A stretch of DNA of 64,000 nucleotides from positions 572,419 through 636,418 of the forward strand of contig JAFDZP010000002.1 in assembly GCA_018266835.1 (NCBI GenBank), written 5' to 3'. This DNA comes from Bacteroidota bacterium (GTDB lineage Bacteria; Bacteroidota; Ignavibacteria; Tepidaquicellales; Tepidaquicellaceae). The position numbers were made by a program, and so were the translations under genes. The notes below the pieces were generated by a model. The model made no database searches, was not told the DNA's origin, and worked only from the letters and a program-made list of their open reading frames with translations. Below are positions 23,429 through 44,743 of the stretch, one piece after another (the first letter of the stretch is position 1; every line of letters starts with the position of its first letter).

Positions 23429-23472
23429 AATTCGGGATGTAGATCAGTTGGCTAGATCGCATGCATGGGGTG
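23429..23472 (+). other. attL: left end of the island, truncated tRNA-Pro copy
   Basis: These 44 bases are identical to 44629-44672, which is the 5' half of tRNA-Pro through the anticodon loop. After 23472 the tRNA sequence stops matching. The remnant continues with GGTGG and, after a 14-base gap, CCACTCAT, which loosely resembles the T-arm. This is the expected product of site-specific integration in the anticodon loop: the original 5' half stays here, and the island supplies a new 5' half at its other end. Confidence 0.9.
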
Positions 23473-23600: not shown

Positions 23601-24626
23601 ATGTTTATCACAAAAGCTCGTAACGGTTACTTCTATCTTTACTACAATACAAATGGTAAAAGAAAGAAAGTCTCAACCTTAACCAAAAACAAGTCTCAGG
23701 CTTTAAAGTTTTTAAAGGACTTTAACCAAGATATCAAACCTATTATTCCTATCCCAAAGAGCTACTCCCTCTCGGAACTTCGCACTCCAATTCTGAATTA
23801 TGTTCAAAGTAATTATGCAAAGGACACATTAGCACAGTATATTACCACGTTCAAAAACTTAATAAGAATTTTAGGTGATATAAAATTAGAGCAATTTGGA
23901 ATAATGGAAATGGAGCATTATAAGAATATACGTTCTAAAGAAGTAAAAAAGACAACATGCAACATTGATATAAAAAATACAAAAGCAATTATAAATCTTG
24001 CCATTAAATTGGAGCTAATTACAGAAAATAAAATTTCAAAGGTGAAGAAATTTCATATCGGAGAAAGCAAGATTTTATCAATGAGTGAAACGGAAGTAAA
24101 GAAACTATTGGAAGCAATTGATAATCCAATGTTGTTAAACATAGTAAAGGTAGGACTATATTCCGGATGCAGAATTTCTGAGATATTAAATATCCAAAGA
24201 GATGATATAAATTTTAACAGCAGAATTTTAACAATTTCAAACAAAGAATCATTTAACACAAAAACTAAACTCAATAGAACAATTCCGCTAAGTGAAGAAT
24301 TTTCACAGCTATTGAAATCAATTTTAGCAACGAAAAAATCGACAGATAACTATTATCTATTTACTGATAAGAGAAAAAATAAATATACCCGAGGAGCAAT
24401 AGCTAAATTATTTAAACCATATATTCTCAAAGCAGGATTGAACAACAAATTTCATTTTCACTGTCTCAGACATACTTTCATTACACTACTCATAAAAAAA
24501 GGTGTAAGCATAAACTATGTGAAAGAGCTTGCCGGTCATACCGACATTAAAACTACTATGAATTATATACACATAGTTACAGATGATTTAAGGGACGCTG
24601 TGAGTAAAATTAATATTACTTTATAA
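23601..24626 (+). CDS. int: tyrosine recombinase (island integrase)
   Basis: The 341-residue protein has an N-terminal arm-binding-type domain, a SAM-like core-binding domain (about 55-150) and a catalytic domain with all active-site residues: Arg191 in GCRISEIL, His287 and Arg290 in HCLRH, His313 in LAGHTD, and nucleophile Tyr322 in MNYIH. It points inward from the left end, 128 bases from the truncated tRNA copy, and is the enzyme expected to recombine the two 44-bp repeats. No excisionase is obvious beside it; the small ribbon-helix-helix-like gene near the right end is a possible accessory factor. ATG start at 23601. Confidence 0.95.
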   Translation: MFITKARNGYFYLYYNTNGKRKKVSTLTKNKSQALKFLKDFNQDIKPIIPIPKSYSLSELRTPILNYVQSNYAKDTLAQYITTFKNLIRILGDIKLEQFGIMEMEHYKNIRSKEVKKTTCNIDIKNTKAIINLAIKLELITENKISKVKKFHIGESKILSMSETEVKKLLEAIDNPMLLNIVKVGLYSGCRISEILNIQRDDINFNSRILTISNKESFNTKTKLNRTIPLSEEFSQLLKSILATKKSTDNYYLFTDKRKNKYTRGAIAKLFKPYILKAGLNNKFHFHCLRHTFITLLIKKGVSINYVKELAGHTDIKTTMNYIHIVTDDLRDAVSKINITL

Positions 24627-26646: not shown

Positions 26647-26659
26647 ATTAATACTGTTT

Positions 26660-26785
26660 TTATTTTATCGCTATAAGCTTTTTAATAAGTTCATCGAAAT
26701 CCTTTTGAGTGGAATCCTTGGTTAGTGTACTTATAAGCTTACCATTGGTTTGTCTTAAACCAACTATAAAAAGATTTTTTTTCAT
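26660..26785 (-). CDS. 41-aa small protein, tandem copy 1
   Basis: ATG at 26785 opens a 41-residue frame starting MKKNLFIVGLRQTNGKLIS and ending KDFDELIKKLIAIK. A second gene of the same length, 206 bases upstream, encodes a close paralogue. Differences between them fall largely in conservative positions while both ends are kept (MKKNL..., TQKDF.EL.KKLIAIK), which argues that the frame is translated. No family is recognised; the C-terminal half looks helical and the protein is basic. Confidence 0.65.
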   Translation of the reverse strand: MKKNLFIVGLRQTNGKLISTLTKDSTQKDFDELIKKLIAIK

Positions 26786-26827
26786 CTTCTTTTTTTAAAA
26801 AAAATTTAACTCGTTTTTGTTTAATCT

Positions 26828-26853
26828 TCAGGTAGCTCATCTAAGCTACCTGA
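26828..26853 (-). terminator. hairpin after second 41-aa gene
   Basis: TCAGGTAGCT at 26828-26837 pairs with AGCTACCTGA at 26844-26853 around a 6-base loop. It is nearly identical in stem sequence and in distance from the stop codon to the hairpin after the first copy. Confidence 0.7.
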
Positions 26854-26865
26854 GTTACTCCGTTT

Positions 26866-26991
26866 TTATTTTATAGCTATAAGCTTTTTAGCAAGTTCCT
26901 CGAAATCCTTTTGAGTGGGATTTTTAGGTAAAGTGCCTATAAGCTTAGCGTTGGTTTTTCTCAAACCAGCCGTATAAAGATTTTTTTTCAT
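26866..26991 (-). CDS. 41-aa small protein, tandem copy 2
   Basis: This paralogue of the 26660-26785 gene starts at ATG 26991 (MKKNLYTAGLRKTNAKLIG) and also ends KKLIAIK. It is preceded by a purine-rich AAGAGAGAAG that can serve as ribosome site. The two genes share similar upstream (AAAAACGAGTTAAATT) and downstream (hairpin) sequences, so the whole cassette, not only the gene, was duplicated. Function unknown. Confidence 0.65.
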   Translation of the reverse strand: MKKNLYTAGLRKTNAKLIGTLPKNPTQKDFEELAKKLIAIK

Positions 26992-27388
26992 CTTCTCTCT
27001 TTCTAAAATTTAACTCGTTTTTATTTTGAACTTCAACCCTCGGTGATTGAAGTTGTATTACTGTTTTTAAAATCAGAAGTCGCCCGGCTCTGAAGCCAGG
27101 TCTCTTCCTCGTTTTTATTGTCTGCAAGAGCTCAATGTGTTCAGAGGAAGTTTTATTTACCTCCTCACTTCCCTTTGGTTTATTTGTTAATTTCAAGCTG
27201 CTCATATTGAAGATTGATTTCATTTTTCCTAAATCTGTTGAACCATATACGGTTTTAATCACAGAGTAAGTGTGTTAATTGATAAGATAAAATTACGATA
27301 CTTGTGTTTAGTAAAAAAGAGTTTTTATAGAAAGTGAACGAAAAATTGGTCGAAAAAAGGAAAGTGATGTGATTACTTTGAAGGATTT
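26992..27388 (-). other. non-coding or weakly coding tract with further hairpins
   Basis: Two more hairpins follow the same pattern of an AAAAACRG motif and then a stem on the minus strand: AACTTCAA/TTGAAGTT (27029-27036 with 27047-27054), and a CCTGGCT/AGCCGGG stem around 27082-27100. This suggests decayed copies of the small cassettes. A 105-codon frame (26945-27262, GTG start, or ATG inside it after AGGA) crosses both hairpins and overlaps the 41-aa gene; I do not trust it. The rest holds the start region for this leftward unit. Confidence 0.4.
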
Positions 27389-28375
27389 TTAAGAAGATTG
27401 GATATCCAAAATTTGACACAATTTAGAGGAGAAATTAATAAACCACCTCTTTCTTTTATTTGAAGCATTTCTACCTGATGCATCACCAATTTGTTTGTTA
27501 GTCATTTCTTTTTTATATTTATCTACGAAATGTTCTGCAACCAGAACGTAATACCCATTATCATCGTTAAATTCAATTTTTTTCTCATTACGTAACGTAT
27601 CAAAAAAAAGAGCCAGACTATTAAAGTTATGGTTCCACACCAGAGGTGCAACACTGGATCTATCCATATTTAAATTTTCAACGGAAGCTTTTATTTTACT
27701 ATCTTTAACAAAAAAGTGTTGAAGTAATTGCTCATCGTCATCATAAAGAACATAATTTATTTTCCTGAATTCATTAAACAGTTTTATTAGCAATTCTATT
27801 GTATCACTCCAAACAATCTTAGGTGTTAATATTTCAGGTAAAAATTCAAATGGATTTTTGCTTTTGCCAGAATCATTTGTTGGTGTGTTTTTTACATCAT
27901 GCTTTAATTCAATTTCATCGGGGTCTCCCCATCCTAATTCAATATTATGTTTAACATAATAATTATTAGATATTCTGTGACCTACTAATTTATCTATACT
28001 GTCATTTAATAAATCTAATATTGAAAAATAATATTGTTCAAATTTATCAATTGGGTATTCTTTTATATTATAGCGAAGAATGAAGTTGTAATATTCTTCA
28101 TGATGAGAACTTATCAGCTCGAAGTTTATCTTTTTCGGTTCAATTTTAAAAATAAACTTTAGATAGTCCGGGCATAATTTTTTTAACTCTGAAATGTTTA
28201 TCGGTTTTATTTTTTCAAGTCTGGAAGCTGACTTGGGAGATTTTTTGTCGTACAAATATTTTAACTCATTGAGTAATACAATTTTTTTAAAAGCATTGTA
28301 TTCTGACACAGGAATTTTAATTCCCGCATGAGTCTTTAACTCGGTTATGTTCTTCAGTGGTTTCCTTAATGCCAT
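27389..28375 (-). CDS. uncharacterised island protein next to DUF2779 nuclease
   Basis: The 328-residue product starts at ATG 28375 (MALRKPLKNITELKTHAG). It is soluble, Lys/Asn-rich and mostly helical. The C-terminal third (APLVWNHNFNSLALFFDTLRNEKKIEF, then NKQIGDASGRNASNKRKRW) has the look of a winged-helix or RteC-like regulatory segment of Bacteroidetes mobile elements, though this is weak. It lies 37 bases downstream of the DUF2779 nuclease gene and is probably co-transcribed. No catalytic motif is seen, so it may be a regulator or a partner. Confidence 0.6.
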   Translation of the reverse strand: MALRKPLKNITELKTHAGIKIPVSEYNAFKKIVLLNELKYLYDKKSPKSASRLEKIKPINISELKKLCPDYLKFIFKIEPKKINFELISSHHEEYYNFILRYNIKEYPIDKFEQYYFSILDLLNDSIDKLVGHRISNNYYVKHNIELGWGDPDEIELKHDVKNTPTNDSGKSKNPFEFLPEILTPKIVWSDTIELLIKLFNEFRKINYVLYDDDEQLLQHFFVKDSKIKASVENLNMDRSSVAPLVWNHNFNSLALFFDTLRNEKKIEFNDDNGYYVLVAEHFVDKYKKEMTNKQIGDASGRNASNKRKRWFINFSSKLCQILDIQSS

Positions 28376-28412: not shown

Positions 28413-29912
28413 TCAGGTCGTTAAGTTTGCTTTATCAAATTCTTCATACAAAACTTCTAAAATTTTTACCATAGCAAAAGTATCAAGCTTACAATATTCC
28501 AATAGGTTTTTCCTAAATTCAATATATTGTTCAGTAGGTAAACCATCTTTGATAAATTTTAGAAAAGAATTACTTGCAGCGGTGCCATTATTTACTGCAA
28601 GATTTTGATAACTCATGGTAGGCACCATTGCCGGTAAAACATCTTTGATAGAGTATGAACCCTTCATAGCGGGTTTATAGAAATGCTTACCTCTGAAAGG
28701 AATAACCAAATCTACAAGTCTTGATATTAAGCCATCTATATTTTGTTTGAATGAAGGGAAATCTTTGGCTATTTCATTTAATCGAGTTTTTTCAAAAGCC
28801 AGATTGTAAACGACAATACTCCCGGATGTTCCTAATTCTAGAATCAATTTTGTTATAAAATCTTCTCGGGGGTCATTTCTATGTTCGCTTAAGAATTCAG
28901 AATGTTGTGTTTCTGAATTCTTAGAGCTTTGTATATGTAAAGAATATTGAAAAGTAATTTGCTGGTGTGGTTTGGTTTTATCGAACAATGGAATTGCAGA
29001 CTTTATTGACTCGAAATCTAAAAAGTATAATGGGTAAACCAAACCACTTAAAAAACTTCTTATCTCTTCTTTGTTAATATAATCACGATTTAATTTTGCT
29101 GAGTTAACATGTATTTTTTGTGTCGCAGTTAATCCGTCTTCAGGGACATCTTTTGCTTTTATAATTCCTCTCGAGTAAAAACTAATTTTTTTCTCTTCAG
29201 TTAATCTTGAAATATCGAAAACTGAATCTTCAGGGATGCCCGACCAGCAATGAGATTTGTAATCACATTTATGTGGCTCCTCACAATGTCTTCCAATTGT
29301 TCGTGTTGGACAAGTTGTTGAATTAAGAGAATTTTTAAACTTTATAATTTCTGATGCGACGAAATCCTGTTGTCCACATATGTCTGCTAATGCTGATTCA
29401 GCTACGAATAATTCTCTTAAATCAATTTCACCATTCCTAGAATATTGGTTATTCAAGCGAATCATTGAAAAGTCATTTAATTTCAGACCTGACTTCATAA
29501 TTACATAATATTGATATGATGCATCAACTTTGTGTTCGTCTTTTATTTTTGTTGTACTTTTAACTTCGTATGCATTCCACCCATTTTCTGTATAATCAAG
29601 AATGTCAATAACAGTTAAGCACTCATCATAAAGAAATGCAGCTTCAAAGATTGTTTTCCTTTCTGAAATTAATCTTTGAGTAACCAGAATTCCTTGCTCA
29701 ATATTCCCATGATTAAAATTTGTATGTACTCCGTCCGGAAAAAGCCTTTGTGCATATTCACCAACAATTTTCCCTGTTTCAAACAATTCCTTTGTAGCTT
29801 CACTAATTGGAGCTTTCAATTCAGGATTGTTCTTATCCAAGTAAAGCATCTTGACACAATGCGACCCTCTTGTAAAACTTGTTTTGCTTAAGATGTAATC
29901 AGAATTTGGCAT
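28413..29912 (-). CDS. DUF2779 protein: Cas4/RecB-like nuclease plus DEDD exonuclease domain
   Basis: The N-terminal half resembles a Cas4/RecB-type PD-(D/E)XK nuclease: SKTSFTRGSHC near the start, then VIDILDYTENGWNAYEVKS with the Asp and Glu-x-Lys, and a cysteine cluster (CPTRTIGRHCEEPHKCDYKSHC) that could bind an Fe-S cluster. The C-terminal half has the DUF2779 exonuclease pattern: YFLDFES, VVYNLAFEKTRL and EYCKLDTFAM, giving the four acidic residues of a DEDD-type RNase H-fold. At 499 residues it is typical for the family. It is divergent from the GIY-YIG gene across a 130-base gap. Role probably in DNA degradation or phage defence; the substrate is unknown. Confidence 0.8.
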   Translation of the reverse strand: MPNSDYILSKTSFTRGSHCVKMLYLDKNNPELKAPISEATKELFETGKIVGEYAQRLFPDGVHTNFNHGNIEQGILVTQRLISERKTIFEAAFLYDECLTVIDILDYTENGWNAYEVKSTTKIKDEHKVDASYQYYVIMKSGLKLNDFSMIRLNNQYSRNGEIDLRELFVAESALADICGQQDFVASEIIKFKNSLNSTTCPTRTIGRHCEEPHKCDYKSHCWSGIPEDSVFDISRLTEEKKISFYSRGIIKAKDVPEDGLTATQKIHVNSAKLNRDYINKEEIRSFLSGLVYPLYFLDFESIKSAIPLFDKTKPHQQITFQYSLHIQSSKNSETQHSEFLSEHRNDPREDFITKLILELGTSGSIVVYNLAFEKTRLNEIAKDFPSFKQNIDGLISRLVDLVIPFRGKHFYKPAMKGSYSIKDVLPAMVPTMSYQNLAVNNGTAASNSFLKFIKDGLPTEQYIEFRKNLLEYCKLDTFAMVKILEVLYEEFDKANLTT

Positions 29913-30042: not shown

Positions 30043-30615
30043 ATGAATCATTGGAAAGAGCCGTATCCCGATAAAATGGAAAATTTAATCTTGGATTGTG
30101 AATCTGTATTAGAATCACTACTGTTAAAAATAAATCATAAAGATTGCAAAACTTTAGGAGAGTTATTTATTAAAGATAAAAACAGCAACAAAATACTTAT
30201 AAGAAAAGATGAGATAAAAAGACTTGGTTATACTTTTAATAATCGATTAACTAAATCAGATAAAAATCTTAATGAAATTAAAGGAATTTATATGTTCGGT
30301 AGTATTGACGAAGTTGATAAAATTGAGCCTATTTACATAGGCATTTCAGGTACAATTTTGAGAAGAATTAGACAACACTGTTGGGGTAAGTATCACTCCG
30401 AAGCAACTTTAGCATATTTGATGACTTCAAGTGATTTAAACCATCAAGGTAGAAGAGACCAACTTTCATATAGTGAATTGGAATTACGACAAGTAGTTAT
30501 AAGAAACTTTAAAGTTGCTTTTTTTCCTTTACAAGATGATTATTCGTTGTATTTTATGGAAGTTTACATTGCTGGAAGGCTTAAAATTAAATGGAATAGT
30601 TTTAGAACACATTGA
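30043..30615 (+). CDS. GIY-YIG nuclease domain protein paired with PHP/SMC ATPase
   Basis: The 190-residue protein has about 75 N-terminal residues without recognised domain, followed by a compact GIY-YIG domain: GIYMFG near residue 80, PIYIGISG near 97, the catalytic Arg in ILRRIRQH, and the metal-binding Glu in FMEVYIAG near 173. The family cuts DNA with one metal ion. It lies 45 bases before the large PHP/ATPase gene in the same direction and the pair is likely an operon. A homing endonuclease is less likely because there is no DNA-recognition extension and no intron. ATG at 30043. Confidence 0.75.
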   Translation: MNHWKEPYPDKMENLILDCESVLESLLLKINHKDCKTLGELFIKDKNSNKILIRKDEIKRLGYTFNNRLTKSDKNLNEIKGIYMFGSIDEVDKIEPIYIGISGTILRRIRQHCWGKYHSEATLAYLMTSSDLNHQGRRDQLSYSELELRQVVIRNFKVAFFPLQDDYSLYFMEVYIAGRLKIKWNSFRTH

Positions 30616-30660
30616 AGTAAAAGATAAATTCAAAATATTTATTAAAACATACTAAATAGA

Positions 30661-33561
30661 ATGTTAGATTATACCAATTATAATAGAGGTTCGGAATGGA
30701 GAAAGTGGGACTTACATTTACACACTCCAGGAACAAATAAAAATGATCAATTTGAAGGTGAAACTTTGGATGAAAAGTGGAAACTATTTATTCAGACTAT
30801 CAATACATCTCCAATAGAAATTGCTGTAGTTGGTATTACGGATTATTTTAGTGTTTCAAATTATTTTAAATTTAAAGAATATTTACTAAATGGAGCTATA
30901 ACTAAAAAGATTGAGTTAATTTTACCTAACATTGAATTAAGAGTACTACCAGTTACAGGATCCTCTACCCCTATAAACCTTCATTGTATTTTTAATTCTG
31001 AAATTGATAAGGAAATTGAAACAAGATTTTTAGCAAAATTAAAGTTTACTAACGGAAGTAGTAGTTATTCAGCAACCGAATCAGAATTGGAACGATTGGG
31101 TCGTGACCATGAAAACAACACAGGACTTGATAAAATTTCTGCATACAAAAAGGGAGTTGAGCAATATGTGATTACTATGGAAACTCTTTTTGATGTATTT
31201 AAAAATGATAAAATGCTTCGTGATAACACAATCATTGTTGTTTCTAATAAAAGTAATGATGGTGCATCAGGTATTATTAAGCATGAAGATTTTTTTATAA
31301 ATGTAAATGCATCTCAATTAGACGCAACACGCCGAAGTTTGTATCAAGCTTCCGATGCTATATTTTCTTCAAATGAAAATGATAGGATTTATTTTTTAGG
31401 AAAAGGAGTTGATGATGTTAGTACTGTAATTAGGAAATGTGGTACATTAAAGCCGTGTTTTCATGGATGTGATGCGCATTCGAACGACAAAGTATTTCAA
31501 CCTGATTTTAATAGGTTTTGTTGGATAAAAGCTGATCCAACCTTTGAAGGACTTAAACAGACACTTTATGAACCTGGAGATAGGGTTAGAATTCAGTCAA
31601 TGCAACCAGATTCAAAAATGGATAGGTTTGTTATTTCCCAACTTGAATTTCTTGACAGTGGGAATTTATTTGGGAATCAAAAGATTTTTCTAAATGAAAA
31701 TCTTAATGCAATTATTGGAGGTAAATCATCCGGAAAATCTCTACTATTATTTTCTACTGCAAAAAGTATTGATCCAGATCAAGTAGAAAAAACATCAAAA
31801 AGGTTAAATTTTGATGGGTATACTTTCAATTCTAATTTTAATTTCAAGGTTATATGGAAAAATGGTGATACTGATTTATTGAATGATTTAAAAGGAGCCA
31901 AAGAACACAAAATAATATACATTCCACAACTTTACATTAATTATTTAGTTGAAAAAAACAACAAGAAAGAGTTAAATGATTTGGTTCAAAATATTCTTCA
32001 ACAAGACCCAACGTTTAAGAAATTTTATGATCAATCAACTCTATTGATTAGGAATATTACTTCACAAATAGATTTACTTTTAAATGAATACTTGGCTATG
32101 AGAAATAATGGGAAAGAACTCGTTTTGAAAATAAAGGAATCAGGTAAATCTGAAACTATAAGAAATGGGATTGCAAAACTTGAATCTGATATTTCAGACG
32201 GACAGAAAGCTGCTAAGCTTAGTTCAGAAGATATAATTGATTACAATAAATTATTAGCAGAAAAAAATACTAATGATTCAAATTTAAAAAAATTATATTT
32301 AGAACAGAATGTTGCAAACAGATTATTAGAAGAGTTAATTTCTACTAGGATTAATTTACTTGGAGATAGTACTCAGAATGACAAGATTAAATTGAAAGGA
32401 AAACTTAATAAAACTTTAGATGATTTAATAGAAATACCTGATTACATGTTAAAATTAAAAGCGAACATTGAAATTGATTACGATAAAATGATTGATAACT
32501 TAAGAAATGAAATTTTAAAATTACGGTTTGATGAAAAAATACTAATAGTCGAGGAAAAGATTAAAGTTAATTTAAGAAATCTGGAACCTTACTTTAGAAA
32601 AATTGAAGACCAAAAAGAATTAGTAAAGCTTACTAATAAATTGGAAGCTGAAAAAAAGAAACTCGATGATATTGTTATATTAGAAAACCTTTACCAAAAA
32701 TTACTTATAGAATATGCACAAATGAGGAGTAAAATTACAGAATTATTGATTAATAGATTTAGTGAGTACAAGAGAATAGTGGAAAAAATTAATGATACCA
32801 AAAGTAATATAGGTTCCGATATTGAGTTAAGTTGTGAGCTAATTTATAAATTAGAAAAATTCAATTTTTATGAACAAGTTAATAAAACTACAATTGGAAG
32901 CGAACACTTATTAAATGATTTTATAAACGGTGAGTATGTAAAATATGATTCAATAATTGACTTATTTAGTAAACCACTTAGATTTAATAACTCAATGCTA
33001 AGCGATAATAATGAAGTAAATATTACAATGAAAGTTAATGTTACTTTTGAAGATATATTGAAAGGATTAGTAAAAGATAATTTTGAAATTGAATATTCCG
33101 TAAAGTACCAAGGCGATAATTTGTTGCACATGTCTCCAGGTAAAAAAGGAACAGTTTTGTTAATCCTTTTTTTACAAATGAGTTCTTCTGAATATCCAAT
33201 ATTGATTGATCAACCAGAAGATAATTTAGATAACAGAACTATTTATGATTTGCTTTGCAAAATGATTAAGGACAAGAAAAAGGATAGGCAAATAATAATT
33301 GTTTCTCATAATGCAAATTTGGTTGTAGCTACAGATGCAGAAAATATTATTGTGGCGAATCAAGAAGGACAAGAATCGATGTTAGAACAAGGTAAATACC
33401 GATTTGAATATGTAAATGGTGCCTTAGAACATTCGTTTAAAGTAACAAATGATACTATACCTCTTCTATTTAAGCAAGGAATACGGGAGCACGTATGTGA
33501 TATACTTGAAGGTGGGAATGAAGCATTTAAACAAAGGGAAAAAAAATACTCTATAAAATAA
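30661..33561 (+). CDS. TrlF-like protein: PHP domain fused to SMC/ABC-type ATPase
   Basis: The 966-residue protein opens with a PHP phosphoesterase-like domain: WDLHLHTPG (His-x-His near residue 18), GITDYFS, LHCIF, and CFHGCDAHSND near residue 270, which together form a metal site. The ATPase part has Walker A GGKSSGKS (about 351-358), a long coiled coil (about 470-740), an ABC signature MSPGKKG near 824, Walker B YPILIDQPEDNLD near 847 and the switch His in IIIVSHNAN near 881. This SMC/RecN-like layout matches what is annotated as the TrlF family of AAA-like ATPases. It probably senses or loads on DNA or RNA and uses the PHP site to cleave phosphoester bonds; with the upstream GIY-YIG protein it may form a two-gene defence system. 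Confidence 0.8.
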   Translation: MLDYTNYNRGSEWRKWDLHLHTPGTNKNDQFEGETLDEKWKLFIQTINTSPIEIAVVGITDYFSVSNYFKFKEYLLNGAITKKIELILPNIELRVLPVTGSSTPINLHCIFNSEIDKEIETRFLAKLKFTNGSSSYSATESELERLGRDHENNTGLDKISAYKKGVEQYVITMETLFDVFKNDKMLRDNTIIVVSNKSNDGASGIIKHEDFFINVNASQLDATRRSLYQASDAIFSSNENDRIYFLGKGVDDVSTVIRKCGTLKPCFHGCDAHSNDKVFQPDFNRFCWIKADPTFEGLKQTLYEPGDRVRIQSMQPDSKMDRFVISQLEFLDSGNLFGNQKIFLNENLNAIIGGKSSGKSLLLFSTAKSIDPDQVEKTSKRLNFDGYTFNSNFNFKVIWKNGDTDLLNDLKGAKEHKIIYIPQLYINYLVEKNNKKELNDLVQNILQQDPTFKKFYDQSTLLIRNITSQIDLLLNEYLAMRNNGKELVLKIKESGKSETIRNGIAKLESDISDGQKAAKLSSEDIIDYNKLLAEKNTNDSNLKKLYLEQNVANRLLEELISTRINLLGDSTQNDKIKLKGKLNKTLDDLIEIPDYMLKLKANIEIDYDKMIDNLRNEILKLRFDEKILIVEEKIKVNLRNLEPYFRKIEDQKELVKLTNKLEAEKKKLDDIVILENLYQKLLIEYAQMRSKITELLINRFSEYKRIVEKINDTKSNIGSDIELSCELIYKLEKFNFYEQVNKTTIGSEHLLNDFINGEYVKYDSIIDLFSKPLRFNNSMLSDNNEVNITMKVNVTFEDILKGLVKDNFEIEYSVKYQGDNLLHMSPGKKGTVLLILFLQMSSSEYPILIDQPEDNLDNRTIYDLLCKMIKDKKKDRQIIIVSHNANLVVATDAENIIVANQEGQESMLEQGKYRFEYVNGALEHSFKVTNDTIPLLFKQGIREHVCDILEGGNEAFKQREKKYSIK

Positions 33562-33655: not shown

Positions 33656-36600
33656 TCATATTCTTTTTACTCTTGATAAGTCTTTCATTAATAAATTAAA
33701 CATCTGTCCTGCAAGGAATGATTTAAACTCTGGGTTGTCATTGTATTCTTTGAACACCTCAAAGTTACTGTCAATGTGATTCATCATTTTCTCTTTTAAT
33801 ATCTCTGTAAATGTGATTTCAGCATTTTGCAAGTCATTCCTTTCTAAGGATGCATGAATATTTTCCATAGCAGATTTATCTTCTTTAACATCCTGCATAA
33901 GTTCCACTGTCATTTTCCGTACTTTGTCTTCGTTTGTAAAGTTCGTACCAAATCTATCATTGAATTCTTTGACAATTTTGGAAAGGTAGTCAAGTTCAGG
34001 CTCTGCAACACCACCTTTCATTTCTGAAGAAGGCATAAGTTCTTTTCCTGGATCAAGTGGAATAAAAGATGTTCCATGATTTATGTATTTCAAACTATCT
34101 AAATCAATTGTATCTGTAATTCCTTTTGTTAAATCTTCACCTTCCTGTCTCGGTATTTTATTTTGTAAATGATTAAGAAAAATATATAATCGCTCCAGAT
34201 AAGGATTTGTAAATGGAACAATTTGCGCTAGAAAAACATACAGGCGGACATATGATTTGCATTTTGTTCTGAAATCTTCTTGAGTTTTTTCGTCTAATGT
34301 GGTGAAAAAAATATTTGCAACAGCATCTAAAATAATATGTAGTTGGTCAATAGCAACGCCCTTAATTATCTTATCTGAAAATTCTTGCACTTGTGAAACA
34401 GTATAAATTTGAAAATTATCTAAAGCATTCTGCAAATCAAATAATTTATTAGGATCAGTTGCTTCACCTAAGACTGTTGTTTCGTAGTATGGTTCAAACG
34501 CTTGCTTTATTTCATCAGTTGTATTAGCAAAATCTAAAACAAATGTTTCAGACTTCCCTTGTATAGTTCTGTTAAGTCTTGATAGTGTTTGAACTGCACT
34601 AACCCCGCCTAATTTCTTATCAACATACATTGTATGCAAAAGCGGTTGATCAAAACCAGTTTGGTATTTATTTGCTACTATTAAAAATCGGTTTTCATTT
34701 TTTTTGAACTCTTCAGGTATGTGTGCACTCGAAAAACCATTCATGCTTTGTTCTGTTTGTCCATCAATTTCACCTGAGAAAGCTACAATAGCTTTAAACG
34801 GTAAGCCATTATCGTTTAAGAATTCATCAAAAGCTTTTTTGTATTTTATAGCATTTCTTCTACTACTTGATACAACCATTGCTTTCGCTAGTCCATTAAT
34901 TTTATGTTGTGAAATAACTGAATCTAAAAAGTGAGTAATCATTATTGCAGATTTTTTTGCAATATTTAGTTCGTGACTTTCTACATACACTCTTAATTTC
35001 TTTTGTGCTTTTTTCTTATCATACTTTGGGTCTTGCTCAATTTTCTTTAATAGTGAAAAATGACTGCTGTAAGTTGTATAATATTTCAACACATCTAAAA
35101 TAAACACTTCTTCTATAGCTTGCTTCATCGAATATAAATGGAAAGCTCTGAATTTATCTTTACCATCAGCGTGATATTTCGTTCCGAATAACTCCAGTGT
35201 TTTCGATTTTGGAGTTGCTGTAAAAGCAAAGTAACTTGCATTACTTAACATCTTACGGCTCTTTAATATTTCAACAATCATATCTTCAGTGGTAAATTCA
35301 TCGTGATTATCTTTTTCAACTACTTCAAATTCATCTTTATCGACTTCAATTTTTTCAAACTCTTTAGATAGCGTTGCATTTAGTTTTCCCGCAGTGTTGC
35401 CACTTTGACTGCTATGCGCTTCATCTATAATTATTGCAAAATTAGTTCCGGGTAATTCTCCAATTTCATTAACTACATAAGGAAATTTTTGAATTGTTGT
35501 GATAATGATTTTCTTTCCGTTTTCAAGAGCTTCCTTTAAATGTTTTGAACCTTTATCTATTGGTTCAACTATACCGGATACCTGTTCAAACTGTTTTATA
35601 TTGCGTTGTATTTGAGTATCAAGAACAATTCGGTCAGTAACCACAATAACGGAATCGAAAATTATTTTCTTGTTGGATTTATCATATAAACTGACTAGCT
35701 GATGTGATAACCAGCTTATTGAATTACTCTTTCCTGAACCTGCTGAATGTTGAATTAGATAACGCTTACCTGCCCCATGTTCTTTAGCATCTGATAATAA
35801 ATTTCGAACTGCATCTAGTTGATGATATCGAGGGAATATCAATTTCTTTTTTTTCCCTTTCTTAATTTTTCCATCTGCTAAAACCTTCTCTGATTCTTCT
35901 TCAATTAGCTGAACATAGTTTTGTATAATGTTGGTGATACTATCCTTAGTTAATATTTCTTTCCAAAGATAATCTGTCTTTATTCCTGAATCATTAGCTG
36001 GATTTCCCGCACCATTTCTGTTACCTTTGTTGAATGGGAGAAAGTAAGAATCATTTCCTCTTAAATGTGTGCACATCCAAACTTGTTCTGTATCGACTGC
36101 AAAGTGAACCAAACATCTTGCCAGCCTGAATAATTCTTCTTTGGGGTCTCGGGTAGTCTTATATTGGATTATTGCATGCTTAACGTTTTGCTTAGTCAGT
36201 TCATTTTTAAGTTCAAATGTAATTACAGGTAAACCATTTATGAACACAATTAAATCCAATGACTTTTCATTTTTTGAACTATAATGAACTTGGCGTGTTA
36301 CTGAGAAAATATTTTTTGAGTATAATTCAGTATCTTTTTTGTTAAGTGCTGATACAGGTTTATCATAAAACAATATTAACTTGATACCCGTTTTACCATC
36401 AGTTATCTCTGTTCGAAGTAAGTTCACTATTCCGCCAAGACATTTATCATTAACAACAGTTTCGTCTTTTATTTTACGATTAATAAGTCTCTTAATATTT
36501 TGTTCATAATTTTCCTTATGTTCAAGTTTCAGTTTTTCAACTTCTCTTGGTTGAGTATTTTCTAAAAACTTAAAAAACAATTCTTCATCAATACAGTCTA

Positions 36601-36703
36601 CTCGGTTGTATTGTTCGAAGTGCCGTTCTATAAATCCATTCACCAAACACAAATGTTGTGTGATATGAGATTCCAAACCTTTTTCCGACGTATCTGTTGG
36701 CAT
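33656..36703 (-). CDS. hsdR: type I restriction endonuclease subunit R
   Basis: HsdR supplies DNA translocation and cleavage in type I restriction. The N-terminal nuclease core is visible as SLDLIVFINGLPVITFELKN (Asp then Glu-x-Lys). The SF2 helicase part has Walker A in HSAGSGKSN, the DEAH box in IIDEAHSSQSG, FTATPK and later VANKYQTGFDQP and LSRLNRT motifs. At 1015 residues it is full length. The gene is the last of the R-M unit, two bases after an unrecognised gene, and converges on the PHP/SMC ATPase gene. Confidence 0.96.
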   Translation of the reverse strand: MPTDTSEKGLESHITQHLCLVNGFIERHFEQYNRVDCIDEELFFKFLENTQPREVEKLKLEHKENYEQNIKRLINRKIKDETVVNDKCLGGIVNLLRTEITDGKTGIKLILFYDKPVSALNKKDTELYSKNIFSVTRQVHYSSKNEKSLDLIVFINGLPVITFELKNELTKQNVKHAIIQYKTTRDPKEELFRLARCLVHFAVDTEQVWMCTHLRGNDSYFLPFNKGNRNGAGNPANDSGIKTDYLWKEILTKDSITNIIQNYVQLIEEESEKVLADGKIKKGKKKKLIFPRYHQLDAVRNLLSDAKEHGAGKRYLIQHSAGSGKSNSISWLSHQLVSLYDKSNKKIIFDSVIVVTDRIVLDTQIQRNIKQFEQVSGIVEPIDKGSKHLKEALENGKKIIITTIQKFPYVVNEIGELPGTNFAIIIDEAHSSQSGNTAGKLNATLSKEFEKIEVDKDEFEVVEKDNHDEFTTEDMIVEILKSRKMLSNASYFAFTATPKSKTLELFGTKYHADGKDKFRAFHLYSMKQAIEEVFILDVLKYYTTYSSHFSLLKKIEQDPKYDKKKAQKKLRVYVESHELNIAKKSAIMITHFLDSVISQHKINGLAKAMVVSSSRRNAIKYKKAFDEFLNDNGLPFKAIVAFSGEIDGQTEQSMNGFSSAHIPEEFKKNENRFLIVANKYQTGFDQPLLHTMYVDKKLGGVSAVQTLSRLNRTIQGKSETFVLDFANTTDEIKQAFEPYYETTVLGEATDPNKLFDLQNALDNFQIYTVSQVQEFSDKIIKGVAIDQLHIILDAVANIFFTTLDEKTQEDFRTKCKSYVRLYVFLAQIVPFTNPYLERLYIFLNHLQNKIPRQEGEDLTKGITDTIDLDSLKYINHGTSFIPLDPGKELMPSSEMKGGVAEPELDYLSKIVKEFNDRFGTNFTNEDKVRKMTVELMQDVKEDKSAMENIHASLERNDLQNAEITFTEILKEKMMNHIDSNFEVFKEYNDNPEFKSFLAGQMFNLLMKDLSRVKRI

Positions 36704-36704
36704 A

Positions 36705-37892
36705 TTAAAAAATTATTAAGTTTGTGTTAGATAAAGATGGAATAGTAAATTCTATTGGTTCTCGTTCCGGCAAGTTGAAAGTGAAATTTGCAGGGATATC
36801 ATTTTGTATGTTAATTATACTATTACCTTTTCCATTAAAAAATGCATGCACTTTTTTTAATAATTTAACTTTCCAATCAAAAGTATTTCCAGTTAAGTTG
36901 TTTTCGCCATAGATCTTCCTGAAATTATTATCTCTTTCTTTTTCTAAAAGATTATAATATTCGTTAAATCGTGAAATTATAGCTTCGGAAAATCGTTCGC
37001 GATTTAACAGTTCTATTGGGTTAACTTTAAGATATTCACCTAATGTTAATGTTATCTCATCATTCAAAGAGTTGGAATTAAATGTATCAACATACTGATT
37101 TCTGAAATAAGAAAATTTTACCAACATAATTTCATAAAGAATATTTTCAAACTCATTTTCTCCGTTTAACTCAAAAACTTCTGAGGCAATTTCTCTTTTA
37201 TTTTCGTCAACATAACATGTTCTAAATTTATGAACTTTTCCATCATATAAATTTACGTTCGCTATTGAAGCTTCGCTATCCATTTTAGTTATTGTTAAAA
37301 AAGTTGTAATGAATAGTAATGGTTCTTCAAGTTCATCAAACTTTTTTAAATCTGTTATTCTAGGAAATGCGTACATCACCGATTTATCAGATATTCCCCT
37401 TCTTACAAGCTCATCAGATAATTTTTTCAATGCTTCATGTTGATCATGGTCTGAATTATCATTAAACTTAAATTCTATATTGGGATTTGGAATTTTTTTA
37501 GAATTATAAAACTTACTACCTGTTATTGTATTCCAATCACTATGTTTACCACTTTTGAATTGAATAAATATTGCTCTACTCTCGTTTCTTCTTACAGGAA
37601 TTGAAATTTTTGTGTCCCACCCGCCTCCAAGATTTTCTTCAGTAGGTGTAAGACGATACAGCTTAGTTTTTCTTCCTCTGAATAAATTTATATTTAATTT
37701 TGGTAAATCGAAAATCAGTGACAATCTATTTGGATACCAAAAACTGAAAGCCGAATTAAACATAGTGGCAATTTCACTTGCAATATTTGTTTCAAGCGTT
37801 GATTCATTCAGACTTACCGGTTCTGTTCTTACTCGTTTTATTTTAACTCTTTTTTTAGCTTTTGTTTTAGTAATTTTTTTAACTTGTGCCAT
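36705..37892 (-). CDS. unrecognised protein encoded inside the type I R-M operon
   Basis: The 395-residue product starts at ATG 37892 with a very basic N-terminus (Lys/Arg in the first 20 residues), then EIATMFNSAFSFWYPN and RAIFIQFKSGKHSDW. The Gln-Phe-Lys after a hydrophobic strand could be the QxK half of a PD-(D/E)XK-like fold, but the acidic partner is not clear. No ATPase or methylase motif is present. It is 13 bases after hsdS and two before hsdR, so it belongs to the operon. It could be an accessory nuclease, an anti-restriction control, or a separate defence factor; I cannot assign it. Confidence 0.6.
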   Translation of the reverse strand: MAQVKKITKTKAKKRVKIKRVRTEPVSLNESTLETNIASEIATMFNSAFSFWYPNRLSLIFDLPKLNINLFRGRKTKLYRLTPTEENLGGGWDTKISIPVRRNESRAIFIQFKSGKHSDWNTITGSKFYNSKKIPNPNIEFKFNDNSDHDQHEALKKLSDELVRRGISDKSVMYAFPRITDLKKFDELEEPLLFITTFLTITKMDSEASIANVNLYDGKVHKFRTCYVDENKREIASEVFELNGENEFENILYEIMLVKFSYFRNQYVDTFNSNSLNDEITLTLGEYLKVNPIELLNRERFSEAIISRFNEYYNLLEKERDNNFRKIYGENNLTGNTFDWKVKLLKKVHAFFNGKGNSIINIQNDIPANFTFNLPEREPIEFTIPSLSNTNLIIF

Positions 37893-37905: not shown

Positions 37906-39129
37906 TTAAATTATTTTTCCTGTTACTACCTCATTTATTATTGCTTCACGATATTCTTCCATAAGTTCAACTTCTCTTTCGGCTTTATCTATCGCAATAT
38001 TCAAAGTATGAGTTTCAGATTTGATTTGCTTAACAATTTCTTGCTGTTCTTGTAGAGGTGGGAATGGGAGTTTTAATATTTTAATATTTTCGACTGATAA
38101 TCCAGGTTGGGCCGCAGCCATTGAATATTGATTTAGATTCATTGTTCTAAGTGTTTCCCCAAGCCAAAAAAAATCTAATTCAACTTTTGGATAAACTACA
38201 ACAGCATGTTCAGAAGCCCAAAATTTATTATAAGCGTAATTAATGTTACCACATAATGCACCTTGCCTTCCTATCAAAACAAAATCGCCATCATTTGTAA
38301 ATTTATTCGTATAGCCTCTTAATCCATTTCCACCATATACAGGAAAATCCCCAGTTTCATTTATTAATTCTGCTGTTATGGTTTCACCACTTTTCAAATT
38401 TACAATTGTTTTTAATCTTCTAATTTCCCAATGTTCAGGAATATCACCTAACCATGAAACTCCCGAAGATTTCAGTTTTACATTCTTATCAATCCCTTTG
38501 GTTACTGCATTTGTAGTTATATTTTGTCTTTGCTCTTTTAGTAGTTCAATGAAGCGTTGTTTAGTTTCGATAAAATGCTGAATTTTTGCCGAATTTTCTT
38601 TTATGTATTTCACAATTTTATCCTGCTCATCTTTAGGTGGAACAAAAGAAAAAATTCTGAAAAAATCGTCAGAGTACAATCTTAAGCGACTATCAATAAT
38701 TCCCGTTGAACTTTTTTTAAATTCTCCTTTAAAAAGAGCAGTCGAAAATAAATAACCGAAATATTCAGGATTATAATTTTCTTTTAGTCTGAATACACAA
38801 TAAGCAGGGCTAGTAATACCTTTGAAACGTGAAACACCTAAACTTCCATTCCAAGCGAGCATTATATTTATGACTAAATCTCCAACATCTACAATTTTAT
38901 AACCAACCAATGTTCTTGCATTGGTAATCTCTACATCATCATCAAATCCTTCTTTTCTTAATGTTACACCTGTGTAATGGGAAACAGACAATAAATCTTC
39001 TCTTCCGGTCATACTTCTCTCATCTACTTCATAAAAAAGGTTTTTTATCCGAATTACTTTCCAATGGTTTGGAATTTCAGGCATCCAATCAATAGTTGGA
39101 GAATTATATTTAGCTTCTTTTACTTTCAT
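37906..39129 (-). CDS. hsdS: type I restriction-modification specificity subunit S
   Basis: HsdS recognises the two halves of the target DNA. The protein has two similar halves, each beginning with a typical repeat: WMPEIPNHWKVIRIKNLF near residue 14 and WLGDIPEHWEIRRLKTIV near residue 228, followed by target-recognition domains and helical spacers (for example the KYIKENSAKIQHFIETKQRFIELLK type region). Its ATG overlaps the hsdM stop as ATGA, so the two are coupled. The recognition sequence cannot be read from the protein. 407 residues, intact. Confidence 0.95.
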   Translation of the reverse strand: MKVKEAKYNSPTIDWMPEIPNHWKVIRIKNLFYEVDERSMTGREDLLSVSHYTGVTLRKEGFDDDVEITNARTLVGYKIVDVGDLVINIMLAWNGSLGVSRFKGITSPAYCVFRLKENYNPEYFGYLFSTALFKGEFKKSSTGIIDSRLRLYSDDFFRIFSFVPPKDEQDKIVKYIKENSAKIQHFIETKQRFIELLKEQRQNITTNAVTKGIDKNVKLKSSGVSWLGDIPEHWEIRRLKTIVNLKSGETITAELINETGDFPVYGGNGLRGYTNKFTNDGDFVLIGRQGALCGNINYAYNKFWASEHAVVVYPKVELDFFWLGETLRTMNLNQYSMAAAQPGLSVENIKILKLPFPPLQEQQEIVKQIKSETHTLNIAIDKAEREVELMEEYREAIINEVVTGKII

Positions 39130-41366
39130 CCTACAATTTCTTTGAGGAGATTTTCAGTTTCATGTTCTATAGCAAGCAAATCAGCTGCAATTTCTTCTTT
39201 ACTTCTTTGTGGAATAAATTTAAAAAAGTATTTATTAAAATTTATTTCGTAACCTATTTTAGTTTCGCTATTATTCCACCAGGCATCACTTGCAAATGGA
39301 AGAACTTCCTGTTCAAAGAATTTTTGGATATCTTCATTAAGGGGAATGTTTTCATAATCTTTCAATTCAGGGTCACTTTCATATTCAATACTCCCATCTT
39401 TATTTATTTTCTTAATAACAGCTTCGGCATTTGCATCTCTCCACGATACTGCATTAAGAATATCTTTTACATCTTTACCAGCTAGCTTTATATTTTTTCT
39501 TTTTATTTCTTTGTTAAAAAGTTCACTAAAGAGATTAAAGTCTTTGTAAATATTATCACCGAAAATTCCCTGAAGTTTTTTTGATTGATTTAAAAGATTA
39601 AAATCTCGGTGCCAAGAAGATATATCCAGAAGTTGATTTGCTATCTTCATTTTCTTTTTAGGTAATGAAGAAATAGAAATTTCTGTTTCACTCTCCTCTT
39701 GCTTTTCTTCTTCATTGTCCTGAATGAAATAATTTAAAAGCCATTGTTCAATTTTACTCGTAAACTTTTTATCATAAACATCATCACCAAATTCTTTGTA
39801 TAATTCTTCACGTAGTACGGAGTTATTAGAAACAAACCTGAGAGGAGCTAAATTTTTCAATGTAAACTGAACATTTAAACGTAGTGGTCTGTGTACAATA
39901 ATTTTAGAATAACCAAACTCGTTGTTATCAAATATTTTGCTGTACTCAGTTTCTTTAAACTCCAAATAAAGTCTGGTGATATCGTTAATGTTTTTTTCAG
40001 TCAGTTCATTACGTTTACTTCCTAATGGTTTTTTCATTTTCCCGAAAAAATCTTTCCCGTTTGCATTAATAAGTTGTATCTTTCCTTTGCGTTGCTTTGG
40101 TTTTCGGTTTGTGATAATAAATATGTAAGTAGGAATACCCGTATTGTAAAAAATATCGTTCGGTAAACTAATAATTGCTTCTAATAAATCGTTCTCAATA
40201 ATGTGTCTTCTTATTTCACTTTCTCCCTGCCCAGCATCTCCGGTAAATAATGCAGAGCCATTATGAATTGATGCAATACGACTTCCTTGCTCTGTATTTT
40301 TCATTTTACTAAGCATGTGCATAACGAACATTAACTGCCCATCATTTATTCTTGTTGTAACTGGTGTCGCGATATTATTTTTTTTAATCTGAAAACGTGA
40401 ATCAATTACTTTACCTTTATCACCAACACCAAGTGCCTTTTTATCATCTGCCCAGCTAGTTCCGTAAGGTGGATTAGTTAGCATAAAATCAAACCGTAAT
40501 TCATTAGGGAAACCATACTGGCTTAGTGTACTCCCATATACAATCTTATCAGGGTCTTCATTTTTAAGCAACATATCAGATTTTGAAATAGCATAAATGG
40601 TGGGAGTATTTTCTTGACCATAAACATGTATTGTGGCTTTTGATTTTATTTCCCCTTCTTCATCAGTGATGTATTTCTTGGATTCGGTTAGCATAGCTCC
40701 CGAACCTGCACACGGATCGTAAATTAGGAATGTTCCTTTTTTGATCTGTTCTTTAATTGGTAAGAATAAAACATGAGTCATCAATTCAATTATTTCACGA
40801 GGTGTAAAGTGACGCCCGGCTTCTGCATTTGTTGCTTCATTGAATCTTCGCAATAAATCTTCAAAAACATAACCCATAGCTAGAGGCGGAAGATGTTGAG
40901 GACGTAAATCAATTTTAGGTGATACAAATTTTTCTATTACAGAAAATAATTTATTGGCATCAGCTAAAGTTTCAATTTCTGTACGGAACTTAAACTTAGA
41001 AATGATATCCTGCACATTAAAAGAAAACCCATTAAGATAATTTTCAAAATTACTTTTAAGATTCTTAGGGTCATCTAATAACGACTTCAAAGTATAAGAT
41101 GAAGTATTGTAAAAAGCATGTCCGGTACCATTTTTATTGTTTGTTAATAAAGCCGAAAGGTCTTCTAATTTATCTTTATACTTTTCATATGTGTTTAAAA
41201 CTTTTTCTTTGGTTGGTTCTAATACAGCATCTAAACGCCTTATAACAGTCATAGGAAGGATTACATCTTTATATTTACTCGGTTCATATGTGTTAATTAA
41301 AACCTGATCTGCGACTGAATATATAAAATTGATTAAAGGTTGAAGCGATTGTGTATTTAAACTCAT
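39126..41366 (-). CDS. hsdM: type I restriction-modification methyltransferase subunit M
   Basis: HsdM methylates adenine at the N6 position in the target site. The N-terminal helical domain is followed by the methyltransferase with SAM motif I DPCAGSGAML and catalytic motif IV NPPYG, together with the HFTPREIIELM block in front. At 746 residues it is longer than many HsdM proteins because of a C-terminal extension with an acidic EEEKQEESETE segment and a helical end, as seen in many Bacteroidetes versions. It is the first gene of the R-M unit, preceded by a terminator hairpin at 41507-41534. ATG start at 41366. Confidence 0.96.
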   Translation of the reverse strand: MSLNTQSLQPLINFIYSVADQVLINTYEPSKYKDVILPMTVIRRLDAVLEPTKEKVLNTYEKYKDKLEDLSALLTNNKNGTGHAFYNTSSYTLKSLLDDPKNLKSNFENYLNGFSFNVQDIISKFKFRTEIETLADANKLFSVIEKFVSPKIDLRPQHLPPLAMGYVFEDLLRRFNEATNAEAGRHFTPREIIELMTHVLFLPIKEQIKKGTFLIYDPCAGSGAMLTESKKYITDEEGEIKSKATIHVYGQENTPTIYAISKSDMLLKNEDPDKIVYGSTLSQYGFPNELRFDFMLTNPPYGTSWADDKKALGVGDKGKVIDSRFQIKKNNIATPVTTRINDGQLMFVMHMLSKMKNTEQGSRIASIHNGSALFTGDAGQGESEIRRHIIENDLLEAIISLPNDIFYNTGIPTYIFIITNRKPKQRKGKIQLINANGKDFFGKMKKPLGSKRNELTEKNINDITRLYLEFKETEYSKIFDNNEFGYSKIIVHRPLRLNVQFTLKNLAPLRFVSNNSVLREELYKEFGDDVYDKKFTSKIEQWLLNYFIQDNEEEKQEESETEISISSLPKKKMKIANQLLDISSWHRDFNLLNQSKKLQGIFGDNIYKDFNLFSELFNKEIKRKNIKLAGKDVKDILNAVSWRDANAEAVIKKINKDGSIEYESDPELKDYENIPLNEDIQKFFEQEVLPFASDAWWNNSETKIGYEINFNKYFFKFIPQRSKEEIAADLLAIEHETENLLKEIVG

Positions 41367-41506: not shown

Positions 41507-41534
41507 AAAAAGCAATGATTACTCATCGCTTTTT
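41507..41534 (-). terminator. intrinsic terminator overlapping the DUF2958 stop codon
   Basis: AAAAAGC at 41507-41513 pairs with GCTTTTT at 41528-41534, extended by ATGA/TCAT inside. It separates the replication/accessory genes upstream from the R-M operon downstream on the minus strand. Confidence 0.65.
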
Positions 41535-41836
41535 AATTTAGACCACAATACTTTCGCATTCACTTCTTCAAAATGTAAATCTCTTTCAATTCCTAATCCG
41601 AACTTTCCTTTATAGTCCGCCAAATCGGATTTTGAAAAACTTCCTATTTCCCATTCAAAGATATGACAAATGCCCCAGCAATAATTTGTGTCTTCCGGGT
41701 CTTGATTTAATAAATACCATGTTCCTGCTCCTGTAGGATTAAAGAACTTTGCAACAACAATTTGTGATTCGAGATCATTTCCTTTCGGGTATTGTTCTTG
41801 TGCTTTCGCTTCTATTTCTTTAGTAAACAGTTTCAT
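41519..41836 (-). CDS. DUF2958-like protein
   Basis: This 105-residue protein matches the DUF2958 pattern common on plasmids and integrative elements: MKLFTKEIEAKA at the start, IVVAKFFNPTGAGTWYLLNQDPED in the middle, and FGLGIERDLHFE near the end. The ATG at 41836 is chosen over an upstream TTG because it matches the family start. Its role is unknown; relatives usually sit near replication and transfer genes. It follows the 152-residue gene and ends in a terminator. Confidence 0.8.
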   Translation of the reverse strand: MKLFTKEIEAKAQEQYPKGNDLESQIVVAKFFNPTGAGTWYLLNQDPEDTNYCWGICHIFEWEIGSFSKSDLADYKGKFGLGIERDLHFEEVNAKVLWSKLKSDE

Positions 41837-41908
41837 TAAATTTGGTTTGAATGAAAAGAGAGAATCATCCGAAAACAATTCTCTCTTTGTAAATAATTTA
41901 ATTTATTT

Positions 41909-42367
41909 TTAAGCTCTGACTCTTCTTAAAAACAGAGTAACTCCAAGCTTATTGATATCGATATCCACTCCGAGTTCTTCTCTTAATTTAACCGCATCTG
42001 ACATAGCTTGTAGCATCACAGGGTAGTCAGTGCTCATTGTCTCATTATCATTGTAAGGATTCTCTGAGTGTGGAGCTTGTTGTTTTGTCTCTGGCTTCAG
42101 TATGCTTATTTCGTAATCCACAATGTTTGCCTTACCGCTCTTTGTAATCTTTTTTGTAATTGTGATTTCATCCTGCTGTCCGACATGATTTTGTTTAAAA
42201 TGATCTACAACTTTCTCAGGTGCAAAGAATGAATATTCAGTGCCACCCGATATAACATTGTACAACCACCATGCACCATAAGAACTTTGCCCTGTGGCAG
42301 GGTCTGTCTGAAGCAGTTTAAATGTGCGTGGAATGTTAATGTCTAATTCAAATTTTGGTTTACTCAT
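41909..42367 (-). CDS. island accessory protein, possibly ssDNA-binding
   Basis: The 152-residue protein has an N-terminal beta-rich half with YGAWWLYNVISGGTEYSFFAPEKVVDHF and alternating hydrophobic/basic strands (DEITITKKITKSGKANIVDYEISIL), a disordered linker, and a helical C-terminus. The first half could be an OB-fold that binds single-stranded DNA. This idea rests on pattern only. It is flanked by the Gam-like and DUF2958 genes in the same direction, a context typical of element DNA maintenance. ATG at 42367. Confidence 0.6.
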   Translation of the reverse strand: MSKPKFELDINIPRTFKLLQTDPATGQSSYGAWWLYNVISGGTEYSFFAPEKVVDHFKQNHVGQQDEITITKKITKSGKANIVDYEISILKPETKQQAPHSENPYNDNETMSTDYPVMLQAMSDAVKLREELGVDIDINKLGVTLFLRRVRA

Positions 42368-42391
42368 TTTTTTTGTTTAAAGTTTTTAAAA

Positions 42392-43009
42392 TTAGTTTTG
42401 TTCTGAAAGCTTGTAATAGAACTTTGGCTCCTGGCTTTTGACGATGACACCTTTAGGAATTTCATTTGATTTGTTAATGAAGTTCTTAATTGCTTGTATG
42501 TCAGGTTCATAACTTTCAGGATGATGTTTTAAGAAATCCGGATTAGCATCTCTGAAGAATAATTCTTCATCTGTGATTTCCAATTTCTTAGGAAGCTTGC
42601 GAAGTCCTATAACTCCGTTTGGAAGTGAAAGAGATTTGAGGTTATTTGACTTCAGATAATATTTTAAGCGGTTGCTTAAATATGAAACAGATGAACTAAT
42701 ATTCCTTTCCCTGCCTTCAAGCCATTTTTCAGTTCTTGTAATAGTCTCTGTGGCTATTTGCTGGTACTTTAAAAGCTCTTCCTCTTTCTTCCTGATAACA
42801 TAAAGATATGTATCAAGTTGAACTTCAGGGGAAGCTTCCTTTAGGTTATCAGTTAAAAAGCTTTCATCCAGATTCATGCTGTTTATAATTTCTTCCAGTG
42901 TTTCTTTATCGGATAAAGACTTAATTAATGAATTAGCTTCTTCAATTGAATGAATATTCGATTCATCGAAGGAAGTTAAAACTTCCGCTGAACTATCTTT
43001 TCCTGACAT
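42392..43009 (-). CDS. Gam/Gp157-like host-nuclease inhibitor family protein
   Basis: The C-terminal two thirds has the Gam/Gp157 pattern: a long helix (KWLEGRERNISSSVSYLSNRLKYY), then a beta part, LPNGVIGLRKLPKKLEITDEE, and the AIKNFINKSNEIPKGVIV end. Such proteins bind DNA ends or block host exonucleases and help replicating mobile elements survive RecBCD/AddAB attack. The start at 43009 is preferred because it is preceded by GGAGACCTT with good spacing; an earlier in-frame TTG exists at 43072. 205 residues. Confidence 0.7.
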   Translation of the reverse strand: MSGKDSSAEVLTSFDESNIHSIEEANSLIKSLSDKETLEEIINSMNLDESFLTDNLKEASPEVQLDTYLYVIRKKEEELLKYQQIATETITRTEKWLEGRERNISSSVSYLSNRLKYYLKSNNLKSLSLPNGVIGLRKLPKKLEITDEELFFRDANPDFLKHHPESYEPDIQAIKNFINKSNEIPKGVIVKSQEPKFYYKLSEQN

Positions 43010-43205
43010 AAGGTCTCCATTTAAATTTGGCGAGCTTTGTGAAAAGTGATTCAATGCATTCACGACAAACAACTTTTGCTACGTGTTTAATAAGGATTAG
43101 ATAATAATTCATTTGAATTCTCCTTTTAGGTTTATTATTGTTTTTGATTACAATAATATTATACCAGTAAAAGTAGAATGAATATGAATTGTTAGATTGA
43201 CGAGT

Positions 43206-44628: not shown

Positions 44629-44672
44629 AATTCGGGATGTAGATCAGTTGGCTAGATCGCATGCATGGGGTG
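44629..44672 (+). other. attR: right end of the island
   Basis: This 44-bp segment is the exact direct repeat of 23429-23472 and covers the last bases before tRNA-Pro plus its 5' half through the anticodon loop. The sequence left of the crossover (including the arm sites) belongs to the island; the 3' half of the tRNA and radC are chromosome. The crossover point is inside the shared segment and cannot be fixed further from sequence. Confidence 0.9.
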
Positions 44673-44706
44673 CATGAGGCCGGTGGTTCGAGTCCACTCA
44701 TCCCGA
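44633..44706 (+). tRNA. tRNA-Pro (GGG anticodon)
   Basis: Acceptor CGGGATG pairs with CATCCCG; the D-arm is GATC...GATC; the anticodon stem CATGC/GCATG surrounds ATGGGGT with anticodon GGG; the T-arm GGTGG/CCACT surrounds TTCGAGT. Discriminator A, no encoded CCA. The gene is intact but its 5' half and upstream promoter come from the integrated island. Confidence 0.95.
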
Positions 44707-44743
44707 CAAAATTCCCTCACCCTCGGGCAAATAACCTAAGCCT

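Follow-up and report, generated by a model that had tools for sequence, protein, structure and literature searches.

Two neighbouring genes in a 64,000-nucleotide stretch of a Bacteroidota genome (the window) encode a small GIY-YIG protein and a large protein that joins a PHP domain to an SMC-like ATPase. An initial annotation presented them as a candidate two-gene defence system. This raises the question of whether the two proteins form a system in their own right or are separate genes that share a mobile element. The two genes are as follows:

30043..30615, plus strand: GIY-YIG nuclease by domain, single domain, 190 aa (weak PF01541 match; catalytic residues invariant in alignment)
30661..33561, plus strand: TrlF-family protein with PHP, coiled coil and ABC/SMC-like ATPase, 966 aa (NF045780 match; motifs invariant)

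Both open reading frames are intact and lie on the same strand with a gap of 45 bases, as first described, and no plus-strand terminator-like site falls between them. They form one apparent transcription unit, the 45-bp spacing suggesting co-transcription.

The two proteins

From its sequence, the large protein is a member of the TrlF family, to which it had initially been likened. It matches NF045780 (TrlF_fam_ATP, NCBIfam) at 580.8 bits over residues 9-963 of 966, against a curated cut-off of 350, and shares with the family the order of PHP domain, coiled coil and ABC ATPase. Across 14 aligned TrlF proteins, the PHP ligands (H19, H21, D61, E92, D271 and H273), Walker A (G353, G358 and K359), the signature (S825 and G827), Walker B (D850 and E853) and the H-loop (H883) are all invariant. 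PHP motif II reads TDY instead of TDH (Y62), so the hydrolase activity could be altered. The same is seen in 11 of these 14 proteins; TDY occurs in many relatives, and nothing in the window protein excludes family membership.

A PDB sequence search returned no solved structure matching TrlF, AlphaFold models of the two window proteins were poor (pLDDT 35 and 41), and literature searches on TrlF and PHP-SMC defence proteins found no relevant study. In one TrlF relative (L016), the PHP domain is similar to RNase RNM and to 3',5'-nucleoside bisphosphate phosphatase; in the NCBIfam scan, the window protein itself scored below both models.

The small protein is, by its motifs, a diverged yet complete member of the GIY-YIG superfamily. 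Its match to Pfam PF01541 is weak (E 1e-3; 19.8 bits vs a cut-off of 22.6). An alignment of nine family sequences (the window protein and eight relatives) places the GIY and YIG motifs and the catalytic Arg, Glu and Asn in the window protein, with ten residues invariant throughout, including G81, Y83, Y98, R108, H112, E173 and N185. The family profile matches UvrC and T4 endonuclease II in the PDB, while the PADLOC matches of the window protein are weak and at domain level only (UzuA and PDC-S14). PD-T4-3 and PD-lambda-1, which have been named as GIY-YIG nucleases (PMC10952713), have the catalytic domain in common with it, a likeness at the level of the domain.

A mobile element with exchangeable cargo

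The pair was initially placed in an integrated island. This is now identified as a 21.2-kb element at tRNA-Pro, set by a perfect 44-nt direct repeat and an integrase. Its other main features are:

23429..23472, plus strand: attL, left attachment repeat; first 40 nt of tRNA-Pro plus 4, a perfect 44-nt repeat with 44629-44672
23601..24626, plus strand: tyrosine integrase (Phage_integrase E 7e-34; PHROG integrase)
33656..36703, minus strand: HsdR, type I restriction, convergent with TrlF (HSDR_N, SWI2_SNF2)
36705..37892, minus strand: 395-aa gene, flanked by hsdR and hsdS (matches nothing in Pfam, PADLOC or NCBIfam)
37906..39129, minus strand: HsdS (PADLOC Specificity_I, 312 bits)
39126..41366, minus strand: HsdM (PADLOC MTase_I, 809 bits)
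41519..43072, minus strand: element backbone, with DUF2958, 152-aa and Gam-like (Mu Gam) genes (sister-species identity)
44629..44707, plus strand: right attachment repeat (44629-44672) and intact tRNA-Pro (44633-44707)

The type I restriction-modification (R-M) neighbour reported earlier is present, with the added precision that it reads towards TrlF; being convergent, the hsd genes lie outside the TrlF operon. The reported Cas4 gene was also found in the island, as a Cas4-like/DUF2779 gene.

A related element occupies the same tRNA-Pro in a sister species (G498). Its backbone genes share 89-94% amino acid identity with those of the window (41.5-43.3 kb), and the 14-kb G498 stretch holds no match to the window hsd, TrlF, GIY-YIG or Cas4-like genes. 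Instead, its cargo includes a CBASS cyclase (PADLOC 359 bits) and a patatin phospholipase effector (335 bits), together with T5orf172, HNH and UDG genes. A shared backbone with different cargo marks the window pair as swappable cargo in a defence slot. The defence-cargo setting, already suspected from the neighbouring genes, is well supported, and the adjacency of TrlF to hsd genes on several branches of its tree, along with the GIY-YIG relatives at hsd loci, agrees with it.

Several further observations were made at this site. The natural cargo swap at the same tRNA-Pro can be seen at sister-species locus L219:4738-8545 (CBASS cyclase and patatin phospholipase). Within the window element, a Cas4-like and DUF2779 protein is followed on the same strand by a 328-aa gene (window 28413-29912 and 27389-28375), and the two are possibly a further uncharacterised cargo unit. 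A tandem duplication of ~206 nt at window 26656-27008 seems, by eye, to hold two copies of a minus-strand ORF of ~42 aa (MKKNL...KKLIAIK). A 430-aa element gene (window 24972-26264) has phrog_4756 as its sole match (168 bits), the function of which is not annotated.

Conservation of the pair

A two-gene system would be expected to recur. The pair was sought by protein and by profile in samples of the phylum, class and order, as well as in plasmids, phages and viral contigs, the sampling being mainly of Bacteroidota, viral contigs and plasmids. For TrlF, the comparison set consisted of 82 other loci, 36 from Bacteroidota and 46 near-full from viral contigs, with flanks inspected up to ~8.5 kb and up to 6 kb, respectively, where the contig allowed.

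No other genome among everything searched keeps the pair, which goes against the two-gene system first proposed. None of the 82 other TrlF loci has a member of the window GIY-YIG family within the available flank. The view from the other gene is the same: TrlF stands beside none of the other GIY-YIG relatives at 11 opened loci. On plasmids, four GIY-YIG relatives turned up, none of them near TrlF. The closest TrlF (58% identity, from Ignavibacteria) has a small P-loop gene in the GIY-YIG position. When 84 TrlF proteins are placed in a tree, a GIY-YIG neighbour occurs on the terminal branch of the window only, and the sister row is without one. The pairing is a single event on one branch. Because no other examined genome keeps both genes together, they probably represent separate items of defence cargo. 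A recently formed pair could nonetheless be functional; as an apparent one-off, it does not warrant a system name.

Two candidates for a second pair were considered and set aside. At L098, the only TrlF locus with a GIY-YIG profile match, a GIY-YIG/SLFN-g3 helicase fusion lies upstream of TrlF. This fusion is a different type of protein, has its own MazG-like partner and also occurs without TrlF at L081, so it was not counted. At L083 (genome G222), a weak GIY-YIG match ~0.9 kb downstream of a TrlF-like gene belongs to an unrelated 137-aa protein. The MazG-like gene followed by the fusion recurs in two genomes (L098:5565-8131 and L081:4590-7126, the latter copy seen by eye), adjoining TrlF in the first and a GIY-YIG gene of the window family in the second.

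Gene neighbours in other genomes

The company kept by the 11 other GIY-YIG relatives consists mostly of nucleases or restriction functions. For example, a relative 40% identical to the window protein (L082) is part of an hsd operon, between a 428-aa gene and hsdR, just upstream of the latter. Another lies 35 bp from hsdR (L049) and a third follows an MmeI-like R-M gene (L046). Others adjoin DUF2130 and an AAA_13 ATPase of coiled-coil type (L047), the GIY-YIG/helicase fusion gene (L081) or a small P-loop gene (L048), and the remainder are near TIR, SRA, HNH or methyltransferase genes. The P-loop genes at L048 and upstream of the closest TrlF belong to one family, so these small genes move around within a shared pool of defence genes.

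TrlF is itself widespread, with a match above the cut-off in 36 of 395 sampled Bacteroidota genomes. Within the order it is patchily distributed (2 of 44 genomes at E 1e-60). It is common on conjugative plasmids (154 of 194 strong plasmid matches), including those of enterobacteria; in the one enterobacterial plasmid record opened, TrlF stands alone.

The TrlF tree of 84 proteins has two deep halves, and a recurrent partner is found in one of them. At 14 of the 82 loci, a protein with Schlafen AlbA_2 and HATPase_c_4 domains is encoded directly downstream of TrlF, always on the same strand and at -65 to +39 bp. This looks like a real, recurrent two-gene TrlF module. It is restricted to the half of the tree to which the window does not belong, and the window locus is without AlbA_2. 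Loci with this partner include L029, L097 and L116, and the genes often overlap.

Adjacency to type I genes occurs on separate branches. In the window's half of the tree, hsdR lies 4 bp from TrlF on the same strand at L050, while at L096 the two genes overlap by 29 bp, also on the same strand. At L125 (5323-14550), TrlF has same-strand overlaps of 4 bp with both hsdS and hsdR. TrlF abuts an hsdS-like gene on the same strand at L117 (a weak match, 27 bits), and hsd genes diverge from it at L139. In the other half, a TrlF-AlbA_2 pair is enclosed between hsdS and hsdR (L159). On a wider scale, hsd genes were present within ~20 kb of 4 of 36 Bacteroidota TrlF loci vs 1 of 40 random windows, a difference that is not significant (Fisher p 0.18). 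Therefore, only direct hsd adjacency is relied upon here, as a lead.

Comparison with known systems

The window TrlF has PADLOC matches only to Ppl, mad3, HEC-01A and AriA, all of which reach the C-terminal ATPase; no PADLOC protein of the Lamassu or Wadjet SMC systems matches it. With the anti-phage protein Ppl (NF042955, PADLOC Ppl), the similarity amounts to 82.1 bits, far below the 1000-bit equivalog cut-off, and its best stretch is the C-terminal part, while some other TrlF proteins (L029) match Ppl also in the PHP region. The TrlF and AlbA_2/HATPase_c_4 pair is a recurrent arrangement of the family, but not that of the window.

Like TrlF, PrrC and RloC carry an ABC ATPase and a nuclease-type domain on one polypeptide, and all of them can be encoded next to type I R-M genes. 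A linked type I enzyme keeps PrrC silent, and the ABC ATPase RloC is a homologue of PrrC (PMC2610378). However, these proteins have an anticodon-nuclease domain where TrlF has an N-terminal PHP domain, and the R-M link of TrlF is not obligate: type I genes are adjacent but convergent in the window, whereas TrlF is inside hsd operons in some relatives. Pfam gave no AAA_13 match in the window TrlF.

Competing explanations and a proposed mechanism

The explanation favoured here, with reasonable though far from complete confidence, is that the pair represents separate, interchangeable defence cargo and not an obligate system, TrlF most likely acting alone or with whichever restriction system is at hand. 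A genuine two-gene system, newly assembled, in which the TrlF ATPase locates the DNA that GIY-YIG cuts, would fit the arrangement of the window genes, which are intact, on one strand and 45 bp apart with no terminator-like site between them. The relative near another coiled-coil-type ATPase, AAA_13, at L047 would fit it too. Nevertheless, such a system is quite unlikely, given that neither the 82 TrlF loci nor the 11 other GIY-YIG loci hold a second case and that the closest TrlF is without GIY-YIG. The idea that TrlF is a DNA-handling protein, concerned with repair or plasmid exclusion and not an anti-phage effector, draws on its SMC/RecN-like ATPase match and on its frequency on conjugative plasmids, which it could serve. 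Against this idea, TrlF shares its element with R-M genes, the sister copy of that element bears CBASS, and TrlF is only patchily present in the order; we regard the idea as very improbable.

The hsd adjacencies bear on the chief rival, namely that TrlF is a PrrC-like restriction guard, silenced by an adjacent type I R-M system or sensing its failure, with the PHP domain, in place of an anticodon nuclease, stopping the infected cell. Type I genes that abut TrlF (L050, L096, L125 and L117), diverge from it (L139) or enclose it (L159) on separate branches argue for such a role, as does the precedent of PrrC. At the same time, the 20-kb comparison was not significant, the opened enterobacterial plasmid record shows TrlF alone, the window hsd genes are convergent and outside its operon, and TrlF has no PrrC or RloC family match; a guard function thus appears unlikely. 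A broader version, considered doubtful, sees TrlF as a modular PHP-ATPase defence core that has repeatedly acquired different helpers (AlbA_2 in one half of the family, hsd operons on several branches and GIY-YIG in the window), a PrrC-like guard firing its PHP domain when restriction fails.

For the separate-cargo explanation, the best reading of the sequences is that TrlF would act on its own as a PHP nuclease or phosphoesterase gated by ATP, and that the GIY-YIG protein would be a restriction-linked DNA nuclease. We infer a mechanism in which the coiled-coil ABC/SMC-type ATPase of TrlF would recognise invasion, probably through DNA that is abnormal or unprotected. ATP turnover would then gate the N-terminal PHP metal-dependent phosphoesterase, and the gated domain may degrade nucleic acid. 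The likeness of the L016 PHP domain to RNase RNM and the bisphosphate phosphatase favours RNA or nucleotides as substrates. The GIY-YIG protein would be a small DNA endonuclease from a family whose members accompany restriction-modification and ATPase genes.

Implications for the TrlF family

The GIY-YIG/TrlF pair itself is ordinary, and the TrlF family is of moderate interest. The window locus offers an entry point to this widespread family, for which no published study was found. The repeated insertion of TrlF in type I operons, together with its tight pairing with AlbA_2, makes the restriction-guard hypothesis directly testable.
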